From a virus: DNA of 44,689 bases. The notes under the pieces are model-generated. The model ran no database searches, was not told where the DNA came from, and worked only from the letters and a program-made list of their open reading frames with translations. The stretch lies in IMG/VR virus record IMGVR_UViG_3300042330_000397, positions 1 through 44,689 of that record. One strand, 5' to 3'. Positions 5,066-37,264 of the stretch are shown piece after piece (the first letter of the stretch is position 1; each line of letters begins with the position of its first letter). Made by a program: the position numbers and the translations under genes.

Positions 5066-5215
5066 CATTTGTTATCGTATAAGCTCTTTATCTTATACAT
5101 CACTAATTTTATATATATTTAGTGTTCAGACTATATCATAATAACCCTTTAAGTTTTGATAAACATAAGATTATTTTCTGCGCTCGTGCGATTTTACTAT
5201 CTTCAACATCACTTG

Positions 5216-6274
5216 TTAAGATTCCATATCGTAGTCGTTGAACTTTTCCACTATTTCTAATGGACTTAGCTGCTGATTGTCCTGATTTTCAGGAGTTTCC
5301 AGACAATTCACAGAATTTATTGCGACCTTGTACTTCATTGAAGGCATTACATATTTTTGAATTATATCAAAAAACTTTTCTTTATAGTATTCAGGAATAA
5401 AAATTGCATATTGATTTTCTAATTGTTCTTGAGAACGACAATATATTCCATATTTTCCCATTAAAAATCCACAAAGATTTTCAACTTCTGATTTAGAAAA
5501 ACCATTTGTGAACAATATACATCCATTAGTTAAATTAGAACCATCATCCATATACCATATAGCCAAAGACAAATCATTAAAATTTTCTATAATAAAATCC
5601 ATCGGAACTATTTTTTTATCTTTATACCAAATATGTCTAATTGTATTAAATGCTAAATTTTGTTCAGTAATTACTGCACAATATGAAAAAGTTTTATTCA
5701 ATTTTTTATGAAATCTTTCTCCTTCACTATATTTACATTTTATATTATATGATTGTAACAATGACATTTTCCACAAATTATATTCTTTTTGGTGTAAAGA
5801 ATGTTTAATAGCGTGTAATGAATTTTTATTCTTTTGTCCTGAAAATTCTCCTCTAAAATTATTTGCTTGGTAACCGTCTCCTAAAAGAGAGCCTGTTAAA
5901 AAACATAAAGCTTCTTGAGAAAGATTTATGCTTGGTTTAGAATGACTTGCATATTTAGGTTTTATAGTTTTAATTAATTTAATGTTTTTTAGTTTAAACA
6001 TTCTATATAATTGAGATGTACTACATTGAATTAAATCTGCTAATTCATACCCTACATATTTTTCAGGATTGTTTATAGTTAAAAATCTTTCATAAACCGA
6101 TTCTAAATCTCTATTTTCAAGGAATATTACATTTTTAGTTTTAATATTTTGAGATACTAAAACTCTTCTAATAGATTCATTACTTCGTCCAATTAGTTTT
6201 TCTAAATCAGGAATAGTATATTGAGACCAATCTGATATGTTTAAATCTTCCAATAATTTTTTAGTTGTAGCCAT
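5216..6274 (-). CDS. LAGLIDADG homing endonuclease, intron-encoded
   Basis: Two LAGLIDADG motifs are present: LCFLTGSLLGDGYQA (near 122-136) and LAIWYMDDGSN (near 236-246), the layout of a single-chain monomeric enzyme with an acidic residue closing each motif. The first ~110 residues carry two helix-turn-helix-like segments (IPDLEKLIGRSNESIRRVL; YELADLIQCSTSQLYRMF), unusual additions that may help DNA binding. The last ~30 residues (CLETPENQDNQQLSPLEIV...) are simply the translated intron core and may not be functional. A full TTG-N20-TATATTTG promoter precedes the start. Confidence 0.9.
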   Translation of the reverse strand: MATTKKLLEDLNISDWSQYTIPDLEKLIGRSNESIRRVLVSQNIKTKNVIFLENRDLESVYERFLTINNPEKYVGYELADLIQCSTSQLYRMFKLKNIKLIKTIKPKYASHSKPSINLSQEALCFLTGSLLGDGYQANNFRGEFSGQKNKNSLHAIKHSLHQKEYNLWKMSLLQSYNIKCKYSEGERFHKKLNKTFSYCAVITEQNLAFNTIRHIWYKDKKIVPMDFIIENFNDLSLAIWYMDDGSNLTNGCILFTNGFSKSEVENLCGFLMGKYGIYCRSQEQLENQYAIFIPEYYKEKFFDIIQKYVMPSMKYKVAINSVNCLETPENQDNQQLSPLEIVEKFNDYDMES

Positions 6275-6887: not shown

Positions 6888-7916
6888 CAATTGTGTTATC
6901 GTTAACCTCTTTATGTTAACTTCTATATATTACTATATAGTTCAGACTATATCTTCAACTTTACAGTTGAGGGATGCTCGTGTTAGCATTACTGTCCACA
7001 GCATTATCTGTTTGGATTTGGCTATTAGTCGTTGAACCTTCAAATTCATTACTGAATAAGCTCGGCTGCTGATTGTCCTTCTGTCTTTCAAGAATAGGAG
7101 TTTCCAGCAATTCTTCCCTTTTATTGTCGGCACGTTTTAATGTATAACCGTTTATAACACATTCAATATTTTTTTGCATTTTTCTTTGTACTTTATAGTT
7201 TGCTACATTTATATATTGTGCAGCTTCACAATAATTATTACAATTTTTTTCAAAAATACCATCTTTACTAATTTCTACAATACCAAAAAATCTTCTATCA
7301 TTTTCAATATTTTTAGAAATTTCTTCTCCTTTGTAAAAAAGTTGAAACCCGTTTATTTGTTTATATATTTTTCTAACGGTCCTATTTACTGTAGAATTGC
7401 TACATTTTACAAAAATTGCAGTTTCTTTAATAGATGGTTTTTCTGTAATAAAATTTCCTTTTAAGTCATATATCATTATAGGTTTTGTAGATTTGCTTAC
7501 AATTCTTTTTGTTCTATATCCTTCTTTTAAAGTAAATTTTAATTTTTCAATAGATTCTGGAGAAAGTTTATTTCGTATAATATCTTTTGTAAGATTATAT
7601 TCAGGATTTATAATTTCGCATAACAATGCTTCATTTCCTAATAACGATTCTTCTTTACAAAATTTTAAAATTTCAACTCTAAAACTTTCTTTTCCATATT
7701 TATTAAATGCATTTTGCAAATATTGATTTTCGTGGCGATTATGCCTTAATAATGAAAAATGTTTATGTAGTCGTTCATATAAATTTATAGAACTTCCTAT
7801 ATATTTTTTATCATTTTTTATGTTATAAATCATATAAACTCCTGTTTTATGATTCCAATTAAAATTTACCATATTCAAAGATAAACTTTAATTTTCAGTT
7901 ATGCAAGTAAATTTCC
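6888..7916 (-). ncRNA. Group I intron 1 of dnaB, inside the Walker A codons
   Basis: The 1,029-nt insertion follows GTC GGT (Val-Gly) and precedes AAA AGT (Lys-Ser), so splicing rebuilds ARSGVGKSAF. Core elements on the minus strand are AATTGCTGGAAACTCC (P), GGACAATCAGCAGCCGAGC (Q), GTTCAACGACTAATAGC (R) and AAGATATAGTCTGAA (S, at 6941-6955). The 3' end AACGATAACACAATTG matches the pattern of the other td-like introns. The endonuclease frame runs through P, Q and R and stops just before S. Confidence 0.85.
6961..7872 (-). CDS. GIY-YIG homing endonuclease, intron-encoded
   Basis: The catalytic domain starts at once: TGVYMIYNIKNDKKYIGSS (GVY...YIG), then NLYERLHKHFSLLRHNRHEN with the conserved Arg, and a Glu near residue 58 (GKESFRVEIL). 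NUMOD1-type repeats (MIYDLKGNFITEKPSIKETA) follow at ~140-180 and ~195-250. The end (ELLETPILERQKDNQQPSL...) is translated intron core. I chose ATG at 7872; a TTG two codons earlier is possible. A TATCTTTG box almost touches the start, so any transcript from it would be nearly leaderless. Confidence 0.9.
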   Translation of the reverse strand: MVNFNWNHKTGVYMIYNIKNDKKYIGSSINLYERLHKHFSLLRHNRHENQYLQNAFNKYGKESFRVEILKFCKEESLLGNEALLCEIINPEYNLTKDIIRNKLSPESIEKLKFTLKEGYRTKRIVSKSTKPIMIYDLKGNFITEKPSIKETAIFVKCSNSTVNRTVRKIYKQINGFQLFYKGEEISKNIENDRRFFGIVEISKDGIFEKNCNNYCEAAQYINVANYKVQRKMQKNIECVINGYTLKRADNKREELLETPILERQKDNQQPSLFSNEFEGSTTNSQIQTDNAVDSNANTSIPQL

Positions 7917-10981: not shown

Positions 10982-11758
10982 TTATACTGGACTTCGGTAA
11001 TACTTATATTCTTTGTAAAATCCTCTTTTTAAATTTCTAAAACAATTGCCTTTTAATCCAAAATATAATCCTGCCTCAACTAAAGATGAAAATTCTAATA
11101 ATATATTTTCTTTTTTGAAGAAATGTTTCATTATTTGACTTTTTTTAGTAGATTCTAATTTAGTATATTTTTCTTTACTATATCTAAATTGATAATTATG
11201 ATGGGTTCCTTTTTTTAATTTACATATTCTACTAATATGTTTATCTGAAGAAGGAGAATTTAAATATCTAGTTGCTTCTTTTATAGAAATACAAGTAGTT
11301 AAATAATTTCCATTTAAATCAAAAATATCTACTGATATTTCTTTATCTTTATTTTTAGGATTTAATGTAGGTAAGTTTTGTTCTTTTAATTTTTGATTTT
11401 TTAATTTTAAAGTTGCAGATATTTTATTTTTAGTGTTTTGTGAAACAATTAATCCTTTATTGTTTTGAGCAATTTGTCTAATATTATATTTTGGTTTTAA
11501 TTTATTTATATAATACTGCTCTCTTTCTGTAATATTTTCACAATATTCTAAAACTTCAAAAATAAAATTTTCTTCACCATATTTATGATAAGCATTTTTT
11601 AAATAAGACGATGAATGCGTTTTATTTAAAAGTTTATTTTTGTGAGTATGATACCTGTTATATACATTTACAGAACTACCAACATATTGTTTTTTGTTGA
11701 TAATATTTGTAATTGCATATACTCCTGCTTTAAATTCACATTTGTTTTTACATAACAT
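10982..11758 (-). CDS. GIY-YIG homing endonuclease, intron-encoded
   Basis: Starts FKAGVYAITNIINKKQYVGSSVNVYNR, the GIY...YVG pair followed by the conserved Arg region, and EENFIFEVLEY with the metal-binding Glu near residue 70. A NUMOD3-like segment (NKGLIVSQNTKNKISATLK) and a NUMOD1 segment (DIFDLNGNYLTTCISIKEAT) follow. At 258 residues it is similar to the dnaB intron enzyme in outline but clearly divergent. Unlike that one, its frame ends before the intron core. Confidence 0.9.
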   Translation of the reverse strand: MLCKNKCEFKAGVYAITNIINKKQYVGSSVNVYNRYHTHKNKLLNKTHSSSYLKNAYHKYGEENFIFEVLEYCENITEREQYYINKLKPKYNIRQIAQNNKGLIVSQNTKNKISATLKLKNQKLKEQNLPTLNPKNKDKEISVDIFDLNGNYLTTCISIKEATRYLNSPSSDKHISRICKLKKGTHHNYQFRYSKEKYTKLESTKKSQIMKHFFKKENILLEFSSLVEAGLYFGLKGNCFRNLKRGFYKEYKYYRSPV

Positions 11759-16926: not shown

Positions 16927-17262
16927 TTATTGTTCCTCGTTCTTATAAGGGTTAGTTGGGTTTATTTCAGTTACAAAGAAATCATTTTGAATTAACACAT
17001 TGCTTTTTAATGATTCTCTAAGTTTATTGCAAGCTTCCTCCCAAGCATCGGCTTTTACTTGCTCTAGGTCGATTGGTTTTAGCCACCATGTATTAGTGAA
17101 ATATATTCCTTCTTCTTTTGGCAACTCTTGGCTGCAATAAACTTTAATAAAGTATTCGTCTTTCATATTGTGCCTAATTTTTATTGCACTTGTTGAAGCT
17201 GAAGTTCCTTGCCCTTCATTTGGATTTGATAAGTCCACTACTTGTTGATGTTTGTTTTTCAT
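16927..17262 (-). CDS. Hypothetical protein next to the cassette array
   Basis: A 111-residue protein with YFIKVYCSQELPKEEGIYFT and LEQVKADAWEEACNKLRESL in a strand-then-helix order. It is the first gene downstream of the array's last attC-like site. A later start at the Met before KDEYFIKV is possible. Function unknown. Confidence 0.6.
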   Translation of the reverse strand: MKNKHQQVVDLSNPNEGQGTSASTSAIKIRHNMKDEYFIKVYCSQELPKEEGIYFTNTWWLKPIDLEQVKADAWEEACNKLRESLKSNVLIQNDFFVTEINPTNPYKNEEQ

Positions 17263-17280: not shown

Positions 17281-17352
17281 CGGGTGTTACTTGTATTTGT
17301 GGATATGCGAAACTTTTTTAAGTAAAGTTTCGGGAAGCGATTTGTTAGTGGC
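17281..17352 (-). repeat. Distal attC-like site (degenerate)
   Basis: The outer core on the minus strand, GCCACTAAC, is the exact reverse complement of GTTAGTGGC at the start of the same cassette, as expected for an integron cassette. An internal 9-bp hairpin (cgaaacttt/aaagtttcg) is present. The other end should read GTTRRRY but reads GTAACACCC, so the site is decayed at that side. Confidence 0.6.
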
Positions 17353-17357
17353 AAGTG

Positions 17358-17573
17358 CTAATGACCGCCTGTCCACCATCTGTATATTTTGTTTTTACTT
17401 AGGTCTGTAAATCTTGCAATCATAATTGTTACTAAAATAAGATTGATTAATGGAAGCCACCATGTTTCAGGTGCGTACCACCATTTTCTTGTGTTCATGC
17501 TCCAAACCATGTAGCACCTTGTTACCCATACACTACATAAGTAAAAACAAATAATTACTACTCCTAATATCAT
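17358..17573 (-). CDS. Cassette gene 1: small two-pass membrane protein
   Basis: ATG gives 71 residues: MILGVVIICFYLCSVWV is one membrane span and WWLPLINLILVTIMIARF a second, ending with a basic RWWTGGH tail. A GTG nine codons upstream lies within the attC-like site and is less likely. It is a typical single-gene cassette, without its own visible promoter. Function unknown. Confidence 0.7.
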   Translation of the reverse strand: MILGVVIICFYLCSVWVTRCYMVWSMNTRKWWYAPETWWLPLINLILVTIMIARFTDLSKNKIYRWWTGGH

Positions 17574-17595
17574 TTTCGTTTCAATTGCCGCACCA

Positions 17596-17690
17596 GCCAC
17601 TAACAGCGGTTTTGCGCCACCGCTGGACAGTTGGTGCGCTGTTTAAAGTTTATCTAAAGCGGCAGCGCAAAGCCGCAAACCGTTACAGGC
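17596..17690 (-). repeat. attC-like site A
   Basis: On the minus strand it opens GCCTGTAAC and closes GTTAGTGGC. Inside, arms such as GCGGCTTTGCGC and GGTGGCGCAAAACCGC pair imperfectly, with an unpaired spacer, as in attC sites that fold as single strands. It is more GC-rich than the phage. The two outer cores match cassettes 2 and 1 respectively. Confidence 0.75.
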
Positions 17691-17695
17691 AAGTG

Positions 17696-18418
17696 TTAGC
17701 ACCCTGCACATTCAAAACTTTCTAACATACAAGGCAACAAATTATTCGGATATTCGTGGTTTAAGGTAATTCTCATAAACGTTCTTCTTTTACCTTTTTC
17801 AATCAATAGTGTTTCGTGTGGTGTATTACTTGTCATAAAATAAAGAGTGTCTTTTTCAAATACCACTTTTCTATCATCAGTTAATTGGTCTTGCATACTT
17901 GTAAAATCGCCTTCTGCACCAACTTCACCATAAAATTCCCCTTGCCAACCTTGACAACCAATTTCAGTAGATACTGCAAATATTCCACCTTTCTTTTCGG
18001 TAATGTAATCACCAATAGGAATTTCAATGTCGTAAGGCAATTCCCAGTCCTTTACAACTTTTAATACAGGATGGAATTTTGCACCACCCCAAGTAGTCGT
18101 AGTTCCGCCCCAAGTTGCCATTTTAAAATTAGGGTCAACGCAAAAATTCCCGTCTGCGTGGATACCTTCTCTACGCAGAAAATCGGACTTTGAAAAGAAC
18201 CGACTATCAATAGTTACATAGTGTGTATTTACACCTTCGCATTGTGGTATTTGCTTTACTACTTCGTTTAAAATATCTTCCCAAAGTTCAAATCCGACAG
18301 GTAATTTTATTCGTTTACCGTTATTTTCAAAAGGCATTACAGAAAGTTTTAAATCCCCAAATTGTGGGTCAGGTAAATTCATTTTACATAGTTTCTTAAT
18401 TGTTGTTTGATGTACCAT
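17696..18418 (-). CDS. Cassette gene 2: putative 2OG-Fe(II) oxygenase-like protein
   Basis: The 240-residue protein contains GIHADGNF (His-x-Asp, near 86) and, about 115 residues later, SNTPHETLLIEKGKRRTFMRI, giving a distal His and an Arg in the spacing of Fe(II)/2-oxoglutarate oxygenases. Between them are Gly/Trp-rich strands (ATWGGTTTTWGGAKFHP). Overall the double-stranded beta-helix reading is plausible but not proven, and the substrate is unknown. Base composition is clearly less AT-rich than the replication genes, suggesting capture from a bacterium. It is bounded by matching 9-bp cores gttacaggc/gcctgtaac. Confidence 0.7.
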   Translation of the reverse strand: MVHQTTIKKLCKMNLPDPQFGDLKLSVMPFENNGKRIKLPVGFELWEDILNEVVKQIPQCEGVNTHYVTIDSRFFSKSDFLRREGIHADGNFCVDPNFKMATWGGTTTTWGGAKFHPVLKVVKDWELPYDIEIPIGDYITEKKGGIFAVSTEIGCQGWQGEFYGEVGAEGDFTSMQDQLTDDRKVVFEKDTLYFMTSNTPHETLLIEKGKRRTFMRITLNHEYPNNLLPCMLESFECAGC

Positions 18419-18468
18419 TTTTTATTTATTTAATTGTTTAAAATTCGTTCTAATTAACCCACACCGAT

Positions 18469-18565
18469 GCCTGTAACAGCGGTTTGGCAAAAGCTGCCAT
18501 TAAAATTTGTGCGAAAATTGAGCATCCGTTAGGCAGCCTTCGCCAAACCGCAAAACGTTATATGC
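18469..18565 (-). repeat. attC-like site B
   Basis: On the minus strand it starts GCATATAAC and ends GTTACAGGC. A perfect 10-bp pair (gcggtttggc/gccaaaccgc) with an extra A-rich bulge and a second pair (agctgcc/ggcagc) make the folded stem. This is the clearest attC-like fold of the array. Confidence 0.8.
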
Positions 18566-18569
18566 TATT

Positions 18570-18755
18570 TTAAGACAACAATACAAGCATACCCAATCCT
18601 AAAATGACAATAAAAGCGGATAATAAAATCCACCAATGTGTTTTATTCGGAAAATTATTTTTCCTTTTTAAAGGTGGCAATTTGCTTGCCCAATCACTTA
18701 TGCTTGTATCGTGTATTTTACTTGATATTTCTTTTATCTTATTTGCTGGTATCAT
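18570..18755 (-). CDS. Cassette gene 3: small tail-anchored membrane protein
   Basis: From ATG the 61-residue product is basic and soluble at first (PANKIKEISSKIHDTSISDW...KRKNNF) and ends with WWILLSAFIVILGLGMLVLLS, one membrane span at the very C-terminus. A longer frame upstream runs into attC site C and was not chosen. Cassette cores gttatatgc/gcatataac match exactly. Function unknown. Confidence 0.65.
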   Translation of the reverse strand: MIPANKIKEISSKIHDTSISDWASKLPPLKRKNNFPNKTHWWILLSAFIVILGLGMLVLLS

Positions 18756-18782
18756 ATTCTTTAAATTTACGAAAGAAAAACA

Positions 18783-18918
18783 GCATATAACAGCGTGTAT
18801 AAAAAATGGCGGGTTTCGTACCATTTAATACCATTTGTGCTGATATGAACTGTATTGCTTTGAAGTTAATTTTGTGCTTTAATTCCGCCACTTCTTATAC
18901 ACGCAAAACGTTAGGGGC
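18783..18918 (-). repeat. attC-like site C
   Basis: On the minus strand it starts GCCCCTAAC and ends GTTATATGC. Outer arms gcgtgtataa/ttatacacgc pair over 10 bp, with inner tggcgg/ccgcca. At 136 bp it is the longest of the sites, with a long unpaired spacer. Confidence 0.75.
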
Positions 18919-18922
18919 AATG

Positions 18923-19126
18923 CTATGCGAACTCCGATAGAAGCTGGTCAATAACTTCATCAATTTGTTTACCATTCCCTTTATTATCTTCCAACATAGA
19001 CTTGAAGAACTCTTTATAAATAATATCAGTCAATATTGTTTCAGTTGTTACTTCGGGATAACCAAACTCTTTCAAGTTCTTTACACCAGCTTTTAATAAA
19101 TGTTCTCTGATTTGTTCGTTTGTCAT
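18923..19126 (-). CDS. Cassette gene 4: hypothetical small helical protein
   Basis: A 67-residue acidic helical protein (TNEQIREHLLKAGVKNLKEF...QIDEVIDQLLSEFA) occupying nearly all of its cassette. It is the first gene of the array in reading direction. No family recognised. Confidence 0.65.
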   Translation of the reverse strand: MTNEQIREHLLKAGVKNLKEFGYPEVTTETILTDIIYKEFFKSMLEDNKGNGKQIDEVIDQLLSEFA

Positions 19127-19144
19127 TTTATTTGAATTTATGAG

Positions 19145-19175
19145 AAGCCCTACCTATAACAGCACATAAGCAAAA
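19145..19175 (-). repeat. Half attC-like / array entry site
   Basis: The minus strand reads TTATGTGCTGTTATAGGTAGGGC, written here as one half-site: the right side of an attC (GCTGTTA...) without a partner arm. Its core would have to be GTTAGGGGC to match cassette 4; instead it has a 5-nt insertion. It may be the point where the array entered the phage. Confidence 0.45.
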
Positions 19176-19210
19176 GCAAAGTGCAAATATATTATTTTAT
19201 TTTAAATAAA

Positions 19211-19236
19211 AACTCCGAGCCATAACACTCGGAGTT
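19211..19236 (-). terminator. Rho-independent terminator after tmRNA
   Basis: A perfect 9-bp stem (aactccgag/ctcggagtt) with an 8-nt loop is followed by TTTTATTT on the minus strand, ~200 nt past the tmRNA 3' end. The intervening ~200 nt hold no convincing gene, only an imperfect hairpin around agttctttt/aaaagaac. Confidence 0.75.
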
Positions 19237-19442
19237 CACACATTTTTCCCTTAAATACCTTTGTTATGAAGGCAATGTGACTTCTCAACAGTCCTTACTA
19301 CTGGGCTTTGTCATTAATATATATAAAATATATCTTTGATTTAGGTGTTCGTGTCACTAATGAGAAGTGTTCTTTTTTTGTTTCATGAATAGGTAGTCTC
19401 CTATCGTTGCAATATCTCTTTGCACACCATCCAAAAGAACTT

Positions 19443-19791
19443 TGGTGGAGGTAGGGGCATCGAAGCCCCGTCTTGCTCAATAACTTATTAATAACTTTAA
19501 TATATGCTTAGGTTTGTATTTCTTTTAATTTGTAATACTTCAAATAGGCTAACCGAAGTTAGCTCCACCAATCCATTTTAAGTTTGGACAAACTTTAAAC
19601 TACGCTGCGATAGCTTCTTCAATCTTTGCAAGAAAGATGATTTTTGCTAAAGTGGTCTCACCAAAAGCCTTGCTTTCAGTTGACATTGTGTTGTTTTTGC
19701 CTGTTAAAGCTTGATAGACTATTTAAGTCAGCACTATCATAGACTGCATAATTACTAATCGTTCTGTTGCCAATCAATACCTGTTACCCCC
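19443..19791 (-). ncRNA. ssrA: tmRNA (transfer-messenger RNA)
   Basis: tmRNA rescues stalled ribosomes and tags the unfinished protein. The 5' GGGGGTA pairs with 3' TACCTCC (one G-U), followed by A and CCA, forming the acceptor stem. Just before it GGGGCTTCGATGCCCC is the T arm. About 130 nt from the 5' end a short frame reads GETTLAKII...AKIEEAIAA then TAG. The beginning GET and the small-residue end match Bacteroidota tags, though this tag (~20 residues) is longer than usual. A 349-nt length is normal for tmRNA. Hairpins after the stop (gctaac ttcg gttagc) fit its pseudoknot region. It reads toward the cassette array. Confidence 0.8.
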
Positions 19792-36703: not shown

Positions 36704-37264
36704 GTGGCTTTAGGTAGTATATATGTGTTGAAAAATCCAATATCTAAAAAGATAAGATATGTAGGACAAACAACAACTTCTTTGGAAACAAGATTGAAAG
36801 GCCACTCTTATGATGCTTTGAGCAAAAGTAGAAGATTAGTGTGTACATGGATTAAAGGATTGTTTGATAGAAGGCTTAATCCAATTATAGAAGAAGTTTG
36901 TAAATGTGATGTTAAAAAATTAGACAAATTAGAAAAATTTTATATAGCTAAATATAATGAGTTGGGATTTGAATTATTAAATTTAACAAATGGTGGAAGT
37001 GGAGATTATATTAAAGAATCTATTGCTATAAAACAAAAGAATAAACAACGTAAATTACGAAATGGTATAATTATAGTTGATAAAAATTATATGTTTGAAG
37101 TAATAAAAAATAAAATTTTAATCGAAGAGTGCTTAAAAACTAATAAAATTCAAGAAGATTTTTCTAATTTAAAAATAAAAAATAAAATAATAATGTACAA
37201 TACTACTCAAAATAAAGCTACTTGTGAATTATTAAGAGATGTGTCCACTAAATTAGACACATAA
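36704..37264 (+). CDS. Free-standing GIY-YIG homing endonuclease
   Basis: Begins GSIYVLKNPISKKIRYVGQT with GIY-YIG spacing, then TRLKGHSYDALSKSRRLVCTWIKGL with the conserved Arg, the catalytic Glu (PIIEEVCK) and LLNLTNGGSGD. The start is GTG, 5 nt after the portal stop. The flanking genes are both intact and no intron core is visible, so it is not in an intron. It ends with short, unrelated residues (RDVSTKLDT). Such elements act on neighbouring alleles. Confidence 0.85.
   Translation: MALGSIYVLKNPISKKIRYVGQTTTSLETRLKGHSYDALSKSRRLVCTWIKGLFDRRLNPIIEEVCKCDVKKLDKLEKFYIAKYNELGFELLNLTNGGSGDYIKESIAIKQKNKQRKLRNGIIIVDKNYMFEVIKNKILIEECLKTNKIQEDFSNLKIKNKIIMYNTTQNKATCELLRDVSTKLDT

Follow-up and report, generated by a model that had tools for sequence, protein, structure and literature searches.

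A crAss-like phage genome carries an integron-type cassette array with no integrase in the record, and its cassettes most probably come from a pool held by Bacteroidota phages. We put a probability of roughly 0.78 on this reading, in which phage integrases without the I2 insertion acted in trans or the array was imported as a block. The array lies within the window, by which we mean the whole stretch of 44,689 nt that was analyzed, a linear IMG/VR fragment covering perhaps half a genome. In the mechanism we propose, each cassette would consist of one gene and a site able to fold when single-stranded, and a tyrosine recombinase would cut at G|TT, free cassettes as circles, and insert them at an attI site or at another attC; because a cassette is released as a circle and reinserted, its two ends should match. 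The pool would be common to Bacteroidota phages, with genes reversed relative to attC in comparison with bacterial arrays. The most likely enzymes would be phage integrases related to IntI and Xer and lacking I2, with a co-infecting phage supplying the activity in trans or a host homologue providing it; alternatively, the block may have been put together in another phage and then imported.

The 9-bp cores at 17344–17352 and 17596–17604, at 17682–17690 and 18469–18477, and at 18557–18565 and 18783–18791 are exact reverse complements, as the initial annotation had reported, and all six 9-mers were located at these places. If GTTA/TAAC is taken as given, the probability of three 9/9 matches is ~1e-9. 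All features of the array are on the minus strand. Cassette 1 (17344..17604, 261 bp) holds a membrane-protein-like gene (17358–17573) between GTTAGTGGC and GCCACTAAC, cassette 2 (17682..18477) holds a gene for a 240-aa protein (17696–18418), and cassette 3 (18557..18791) holds a gene for a 61-aa protein with a membrane-like C-terminus (18570–18755). Folded sites between units had been described, and these are attC-type sites of 95 bp (17596..17690), 97 bp (18469..18565, phage subtype), and 136 bp (18783..18918). The description of the array as three units was correct for the cassettes with exact ends but stopped short, since a fourth unit (18910..19160; gene 18923–19126, 67 aa) is present and the array closes in a half attC-type site (TAAC A GCACATAAGC; 19157..19175, by sequence inspection), its oldest end. 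The ends of unit 4 disagree (GTTAGGGGC vs. GTTATAGG...), and it is therefore best regarded as a hybrid or decayed cassette.

A rule-based finder for the pattern AAC, spacer, stem, spacer, GTT returned exactly three sites in the 44.7-kb window (scores 21.0–24.6; next best 15.7), all inside the array and all with spacers of 5 and 1 nt, and returned no site at ≥13 in 10 Markov-shuffled windows. We also built a covariance model, R1, from 42 bacterial (Bacteroidota) sites only. Over the whole window, R1 detected the 95-, 97-, and 136-bp sites with E values of 5e-10, 1.8e-14, and 2.5e-14, respectively, and otherwise only one antisense echo, even though two of the three sites are without the 19-mer described below. 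The proposal of an integron-like array formed from circles is thus upheld by the 9/9 ends of three units and by a covariance search with a model built here. On the gene strand, the layout is TAAC, a 5-nt spacer, a stem of ~20 bp with a variable loop, a 1-nt spacer, and GTTA, and the sites fold as single strands on that strand, in line with the fold suggested earlier (z of −2.4, −3.8, and −2.0 in the order given). Class 1-type extrahelical bases were not identified in the sites; the spacer asymmetry of 5 and 1 nt is present, compared with spacers of 5 and 6 nt in R388. Plasmid R388, used as a negative control, gave no R1 sites, and one weak match was all that R1 gave in further controls on Tetrasphaera phage TJE1, on 20 Bacteroidota IntI regions, and on the surroundings of pol in close crAss-like relatives. 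A search of the window with Rfam returned no attC family, only tmRNA and group I intron matches. No integrase was found in the window record, in agreement with the initial annotation; with three tandem sites detected by the model built here, the array has the makeup of a CALIN.

The genome around the array was described as crAss-like, and its terminase, portal, and head protein match PHROG families, with the terminase at 31–34% to those of cr60_1, cr125_1, CrAssphage, and Flavobacterium phage FpV4. The cassette genes are GC-richer than the phage, as had been noted (0.357 in the array vs. 0.292 in the rest of the window). Close relatives lack the array: in five with a polymerase that is ~76% identical, g20345, g19965, and a structured RNA with a terminator are followed directly by pol. 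The flanks in the window keep the order and orientation of these relatives, with g21511-g20934-g20345-g19965-terminator on one side and pol on the other, and the phage-backbone terminator segment bordering the array (19200..19296, minus strand) is 72% identical to the segment directly before pol in L216, L217, L218, L220, and L227. Because array-less relatives share its neighbors, the array together with a few other genes forms a variable interval of a crAss-like backbone. This arrangement also makes an assembly chimera very unlikely, although the contig is metagenomic: both flanks are crAss-like in the order and orientation of the relatives, so two false joins would be required, and attC-type sites are present in other crAss-like contigs as well. 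A tmRNA-like gene adjoins the array at window positions 19443–19791 on the minus strand (Rfam RF00023, 52.7 bits; ARAGORN makes no call), in an interval where close relatives have tRNA-like genes instead.

Exact copies of a 19-mer taken from the middle site are present in 44 viral contigs and in at least 118 genome contigs, of which nearly all belong to Bacteroidota. In one single-contig Bacteroidota genome (G014), a region of ~500 kb (C1:3475737-3985800) holds at least 150 attC-type sites, and those listed are all on the same strand. Of 137 cassettes from bacterial and viral loci, 96 have front and back cores with 8 or 9 of 9 positions in common, whereas shuffled controls averaged 13 such cassettes and never exceeded 22. 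Stem covariation in phage sites scored 0.83, vs. 0.20 when shuffled and ≤0.11 when slid; such strong covariation is what would be expected if the folded single strand matters. By R1, about nine sites are present in an isolated phage, Flavobacterium phage hattifnatt9-1, and there is a weak match in a Polaribacter phage among the published phage CALINs. The approximately nine sites of hattifnatt9-1 lie in its early region (L004:2122-6597), which is annotated with hypothetical genes and a methyltransferase; no integrase was found in this phage.

Cassettes are shared between phages as units. Cassette 1 recurs in viral contig L137, where it is also 261 bp long and is 79% identical, and the alignment begins and stops at the cassette ends with nothing alike beyond. 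Cassette 2 has a homologue in huge phage LR756504.1 (68% aa), and the site at 18469..18565 has an 84% identical counterpart in huge phage LR756502.1. Unit 4 has homologues in viral contigs L130, L126, and L305 (81% aa), the last of which also carries an integrase. The front of this unit shows 90% identity over 51 bp with a cassette front of hattifnatt9-1.

Gene direction relative to the site differs sharply between bacterial (56:4) and viral (6:47) cassettes (Fisher, 3e-20), and integrase-bearing phage loci share the viral polarity (53 vs. 5). The window cassettes are of the viral type, opposite to bacterial arrays, and we assign them to the phage pool on account of this polarity. Bacterial and phage loci agree in the side of the sites on which the integrase lies, so what has flipped in phage cassettes is the gene rather than the site.

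Integrons are usually regarded as bacterial devices, and the initial annotation had invoked a host integron integrase in trans. Capture of bacterial cassettes into the phage by a canonical host IntI with an I2 helix now seems improbable. In its favor, IntI1 recombined five of six phage attC sites tested (Qi et al. 2023, PMC9892861), and a true IntI (TIGR02249 over cut-off) is present in 105 of 395 Bacteroidota genomes. However, no recombinase exceeded the TIGR02249 integron-integrase cut-off in 22 genomes picked for carrying these sites, and at the true IntI loci of 20 Bacteroidota genomes, the structural finder and R1 gave nothing convincing, with one weak R1 match, on which basis we rejected those loci as the source of the arrays. 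The gene polarity in the window is that of phages, and the homologues of cassettes 1, 2, and 4 sit in phages.

The recombinases that do adjoin arrays in the 22 site-carrying genomes (285–610 aa) also differ from a canonical IntI. They align with IntI before and after the I2 position, and the insertion itself is absent from the bacterial and the phage enzymes. In nine genomes (G003, G004, G005, G008, G009, G011, G014, G017, and G021), integrase and sites are on one contig, with the integrase first and then the array, co-directional with the cassette genes; genome G016 departs from this arrangement. A matching TATATA...GTTA site follows the gene at bacterial integrase loci L258, L261, and L264. 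In the integrase tree, IntI forms a single clade nested among I2-less array enzymes. The phage sequences cluster together in one clade (95/87) that is separate from XerC/D. The best family match of both phage and bacterial array-linked recombinases is to XerA/XerC-type tyrosine recombinases (NF040815, PDB 4a8e), at 184.9 and 217 bits against a cut-off of 220; unlike those recombinases, they occur in linkage with attC arrays and with an attI-like site, and they group with IntI, away from Bacteroidota XerC/D. An I2-bearing IntI beside an array, as in canonical IntI-type integrons, was found neither in the window nor among the array-linked recombinases, which in bacteria and phages alike score below the TIGR02249 cut-off. 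The window is better accounted for by a phage-type integrase working in trans, or by import from another phage, than by a host integron integrase.

Phages carry such integrases themselves. A related recombinase is present in 4 of the first 44 viral contigs and adjoins an array in three, and a scan with the phage recombinase yielded 487 relatives in viral contigs, from which 80 loci were retained. At 44 of these 80 loci R1 detected sites, 100 in total, and every one of them lies upstream of its integrase and on the same strand. In 53 of 64 loci, the stretch separating the integrase from the last cassette holds a conserved attI-like site, TAAC-TA...ATAT, compared with 0.2% in shuffles, and five locus sets have identical attI/integrase DNA and different adjoining cassettes, indicating cassette turnover at attI. 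The attI beside phage integrases is probably not a prophage attP, given that the neighboring cassette varies among identical attI/integrase pairs and that a similar motif is found beside bacterial array integrases. With the one terminase model used, seven integrase-bearing contigs (54–311 kb) have a terminase gene; the phage status of the others rests on IMG/VR. As a rival reading, the sites might be hairpins of RNA such as transcription terminators, which would likewise come after genes and fold, but the circle rule, the polarity, the attI junctions, and the cassette-exact homology would then be meaningless, and we give this explanation practically no credence.

Several points count against our preferred reading: no integrase was found in the window, which spans perhaps half a genome, or in the crAss-like relatives of its phage, the integrase-side junction (17281..17343, minus strand; native gene 16927–17262 follows) lacks the attI-like motif, unit 4 fails the end-matching test, and the sites show no extrahelical bases of the class 1 type. 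The same junction and relatives, the truncated distal site, and the hybrid unit 4 are consistent with a dead block, a single import from another phage by ordinary phage recombination with no integrase acting in this lineage. We consider this the less likely course, though one to be taken seriously, as three cassettes have perfect ends, cassette 1 stops exactly at the TAAC where attI sits in other phages, and an independent cassette whose ends match is present at another place in a crAss-like relative. We favor an array built by a recombinase that would have acted in trans or in another phage. The cassette of the crAss-like relative (G467, L272:1501-2235) stands alone at a different genome position between GTTATATGAA and TTCATATAAC, and G465 (L273) has a further site.

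Parts of integrons are known from phages, namely 17 CALINs and three complete integrons (PMC9892861). The 17 CALINs were found in 10,705 genomes via IntegronFinder/HattCI, and no crAss-like phage is mentioned in that study (Qi et al. 2023, PMC9892861). The CALINs in virulent phages resemble the window in being arrays of single-gene cassettes with attC and without an integrase, and some of their sites recombine with IntI1 (PMC9892861). In contrast to them, the Bacteroidota site family falls outside the models used there, is abundant in phages, has reversed gene polarity, and is accompanied elsewhere by phage-encoded integrases. The window array is a further variant of the phage CALINs of Qi et al. 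(2023), and the more important result is the I2-less integron encoded by phages. Shared with sedentary chromosomal integrons with IntI are attI, tandem cassettes, matching ends, covarying folded sites, and an integrase at one array end; the differences are that the integrase here is without the I2 insertion and is co-directional with bacterial cassettes.

Earlier work holds that integrases moved to single-strand recombination by acquiring I2 (PMC7790495), that integrons cannot function without it (PMC8138268), and that IntI is defined by it (PMC9668308), and its helix has been seen as the step to recombining single-stranded hairpins (PMC7790495, PMC9668308). IntegronFinder defines IntI by the I2 domain, the published taxon-specific attC models are without a Bacteroidota class (PMC9668308, PMC8352920), and few complete integrons are reported in Bacteroidetes by IntegronFinder 2.0 (PMC9024848). 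Because of this definition and these models, systems such as the present one may have been missed or filed as CALINs. Our literature search, which left preprints and most subscription papers outside its reach, retrieved no description of phage-encoded I2-less integrons or of integron cassettes in crAss-like phages.

Judged from their sequences, Bacteroidota phages seem to exchange genes by way of integrons that they encode themselves. We lean toward the view that they encode a distinct integron class, with a short, I2-less IntI/Xer-like integrase, attI, and reversed-gene attC arrays, and that the window phage draws on this cassette pool. As IntI with I2 nests among I2-less bacterial array integrases, this system may be a surviving remnant of a time in integron evolution before I2, with phages as one branch; a viral branch of integrons is mentioned as a speculation in PMC7790495. 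Strongly covarying hairpin attC sites adjoin I2-less integrases in bacteria and phages, and therefore two questions become testable, the need of I2 for recombination of folded attC and the viral integron branch.

The likely role of the cassettes is to provide optional genes, which in other phages often serve DNA modification. Ten larger phage cassette proteins were tested, and five were DNA methylases, with one Mom, one RNA ligase, and one exoribonuclease, which suggests counter-defense and nucleic-acid functions. Phages, including very large and crAss-like ones, would thus have a route for swapping single genes such as DNA methylases. The cassette 2 protein had no Pfam or NCBIfam match, and the label "oxygenase-like" given to it earlier is unproven, since an AlphaFold prediction without an alignment had a mean pLDDT of 32, too low to use. 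Single-protein pattern scans for cassette 2 and one flanking gene found no relatives, and Pfam matches of ~0.05 for the small proteins were dismissed as noise.

Several further observations concern these cassettes and genomes. The cassette 2 homologue is located outside any array in a 636-kb phage (L002:5971-6936) and has repeated WGGA/WGD segments. One 120-aa cassette protein (M(S/G)L(D/G)VYL(T/N)RK...) is found in the arrays of four phages (L303, L151, L135, and L130). Many phage cassettes begin with a conserved leader upstream of TAACAGCGG (viral loci L123, L134, and L140-L165), which may form a hairpin that takes in the core (GTGCTGGGCGGTTTATCAGCAC or CCTGCTGGGCGGTTTATCAGTAGG), with apparently compensating changes. 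Elsewhere in the window, there are a group I intron, detected with Rfam, that has a homing-endonuclease-like frame and three other frames that appear GIY-YIG-like on visual inspection (5107–6274, 6961–7878, 10982–11758, and 36704–37264). Among the relatives, an intein-like sequence with an opposite-strand reading frame splits a radical-SAM-like gene (L216:849-3445), several tRNA-like pieces include one apparently split by an endonuclease-like gene (L227:6770-9001), and the DNA polymerase gene of L220 carries an insert of ~0.9 kb (L220:7870-8794) that its relatives lack.
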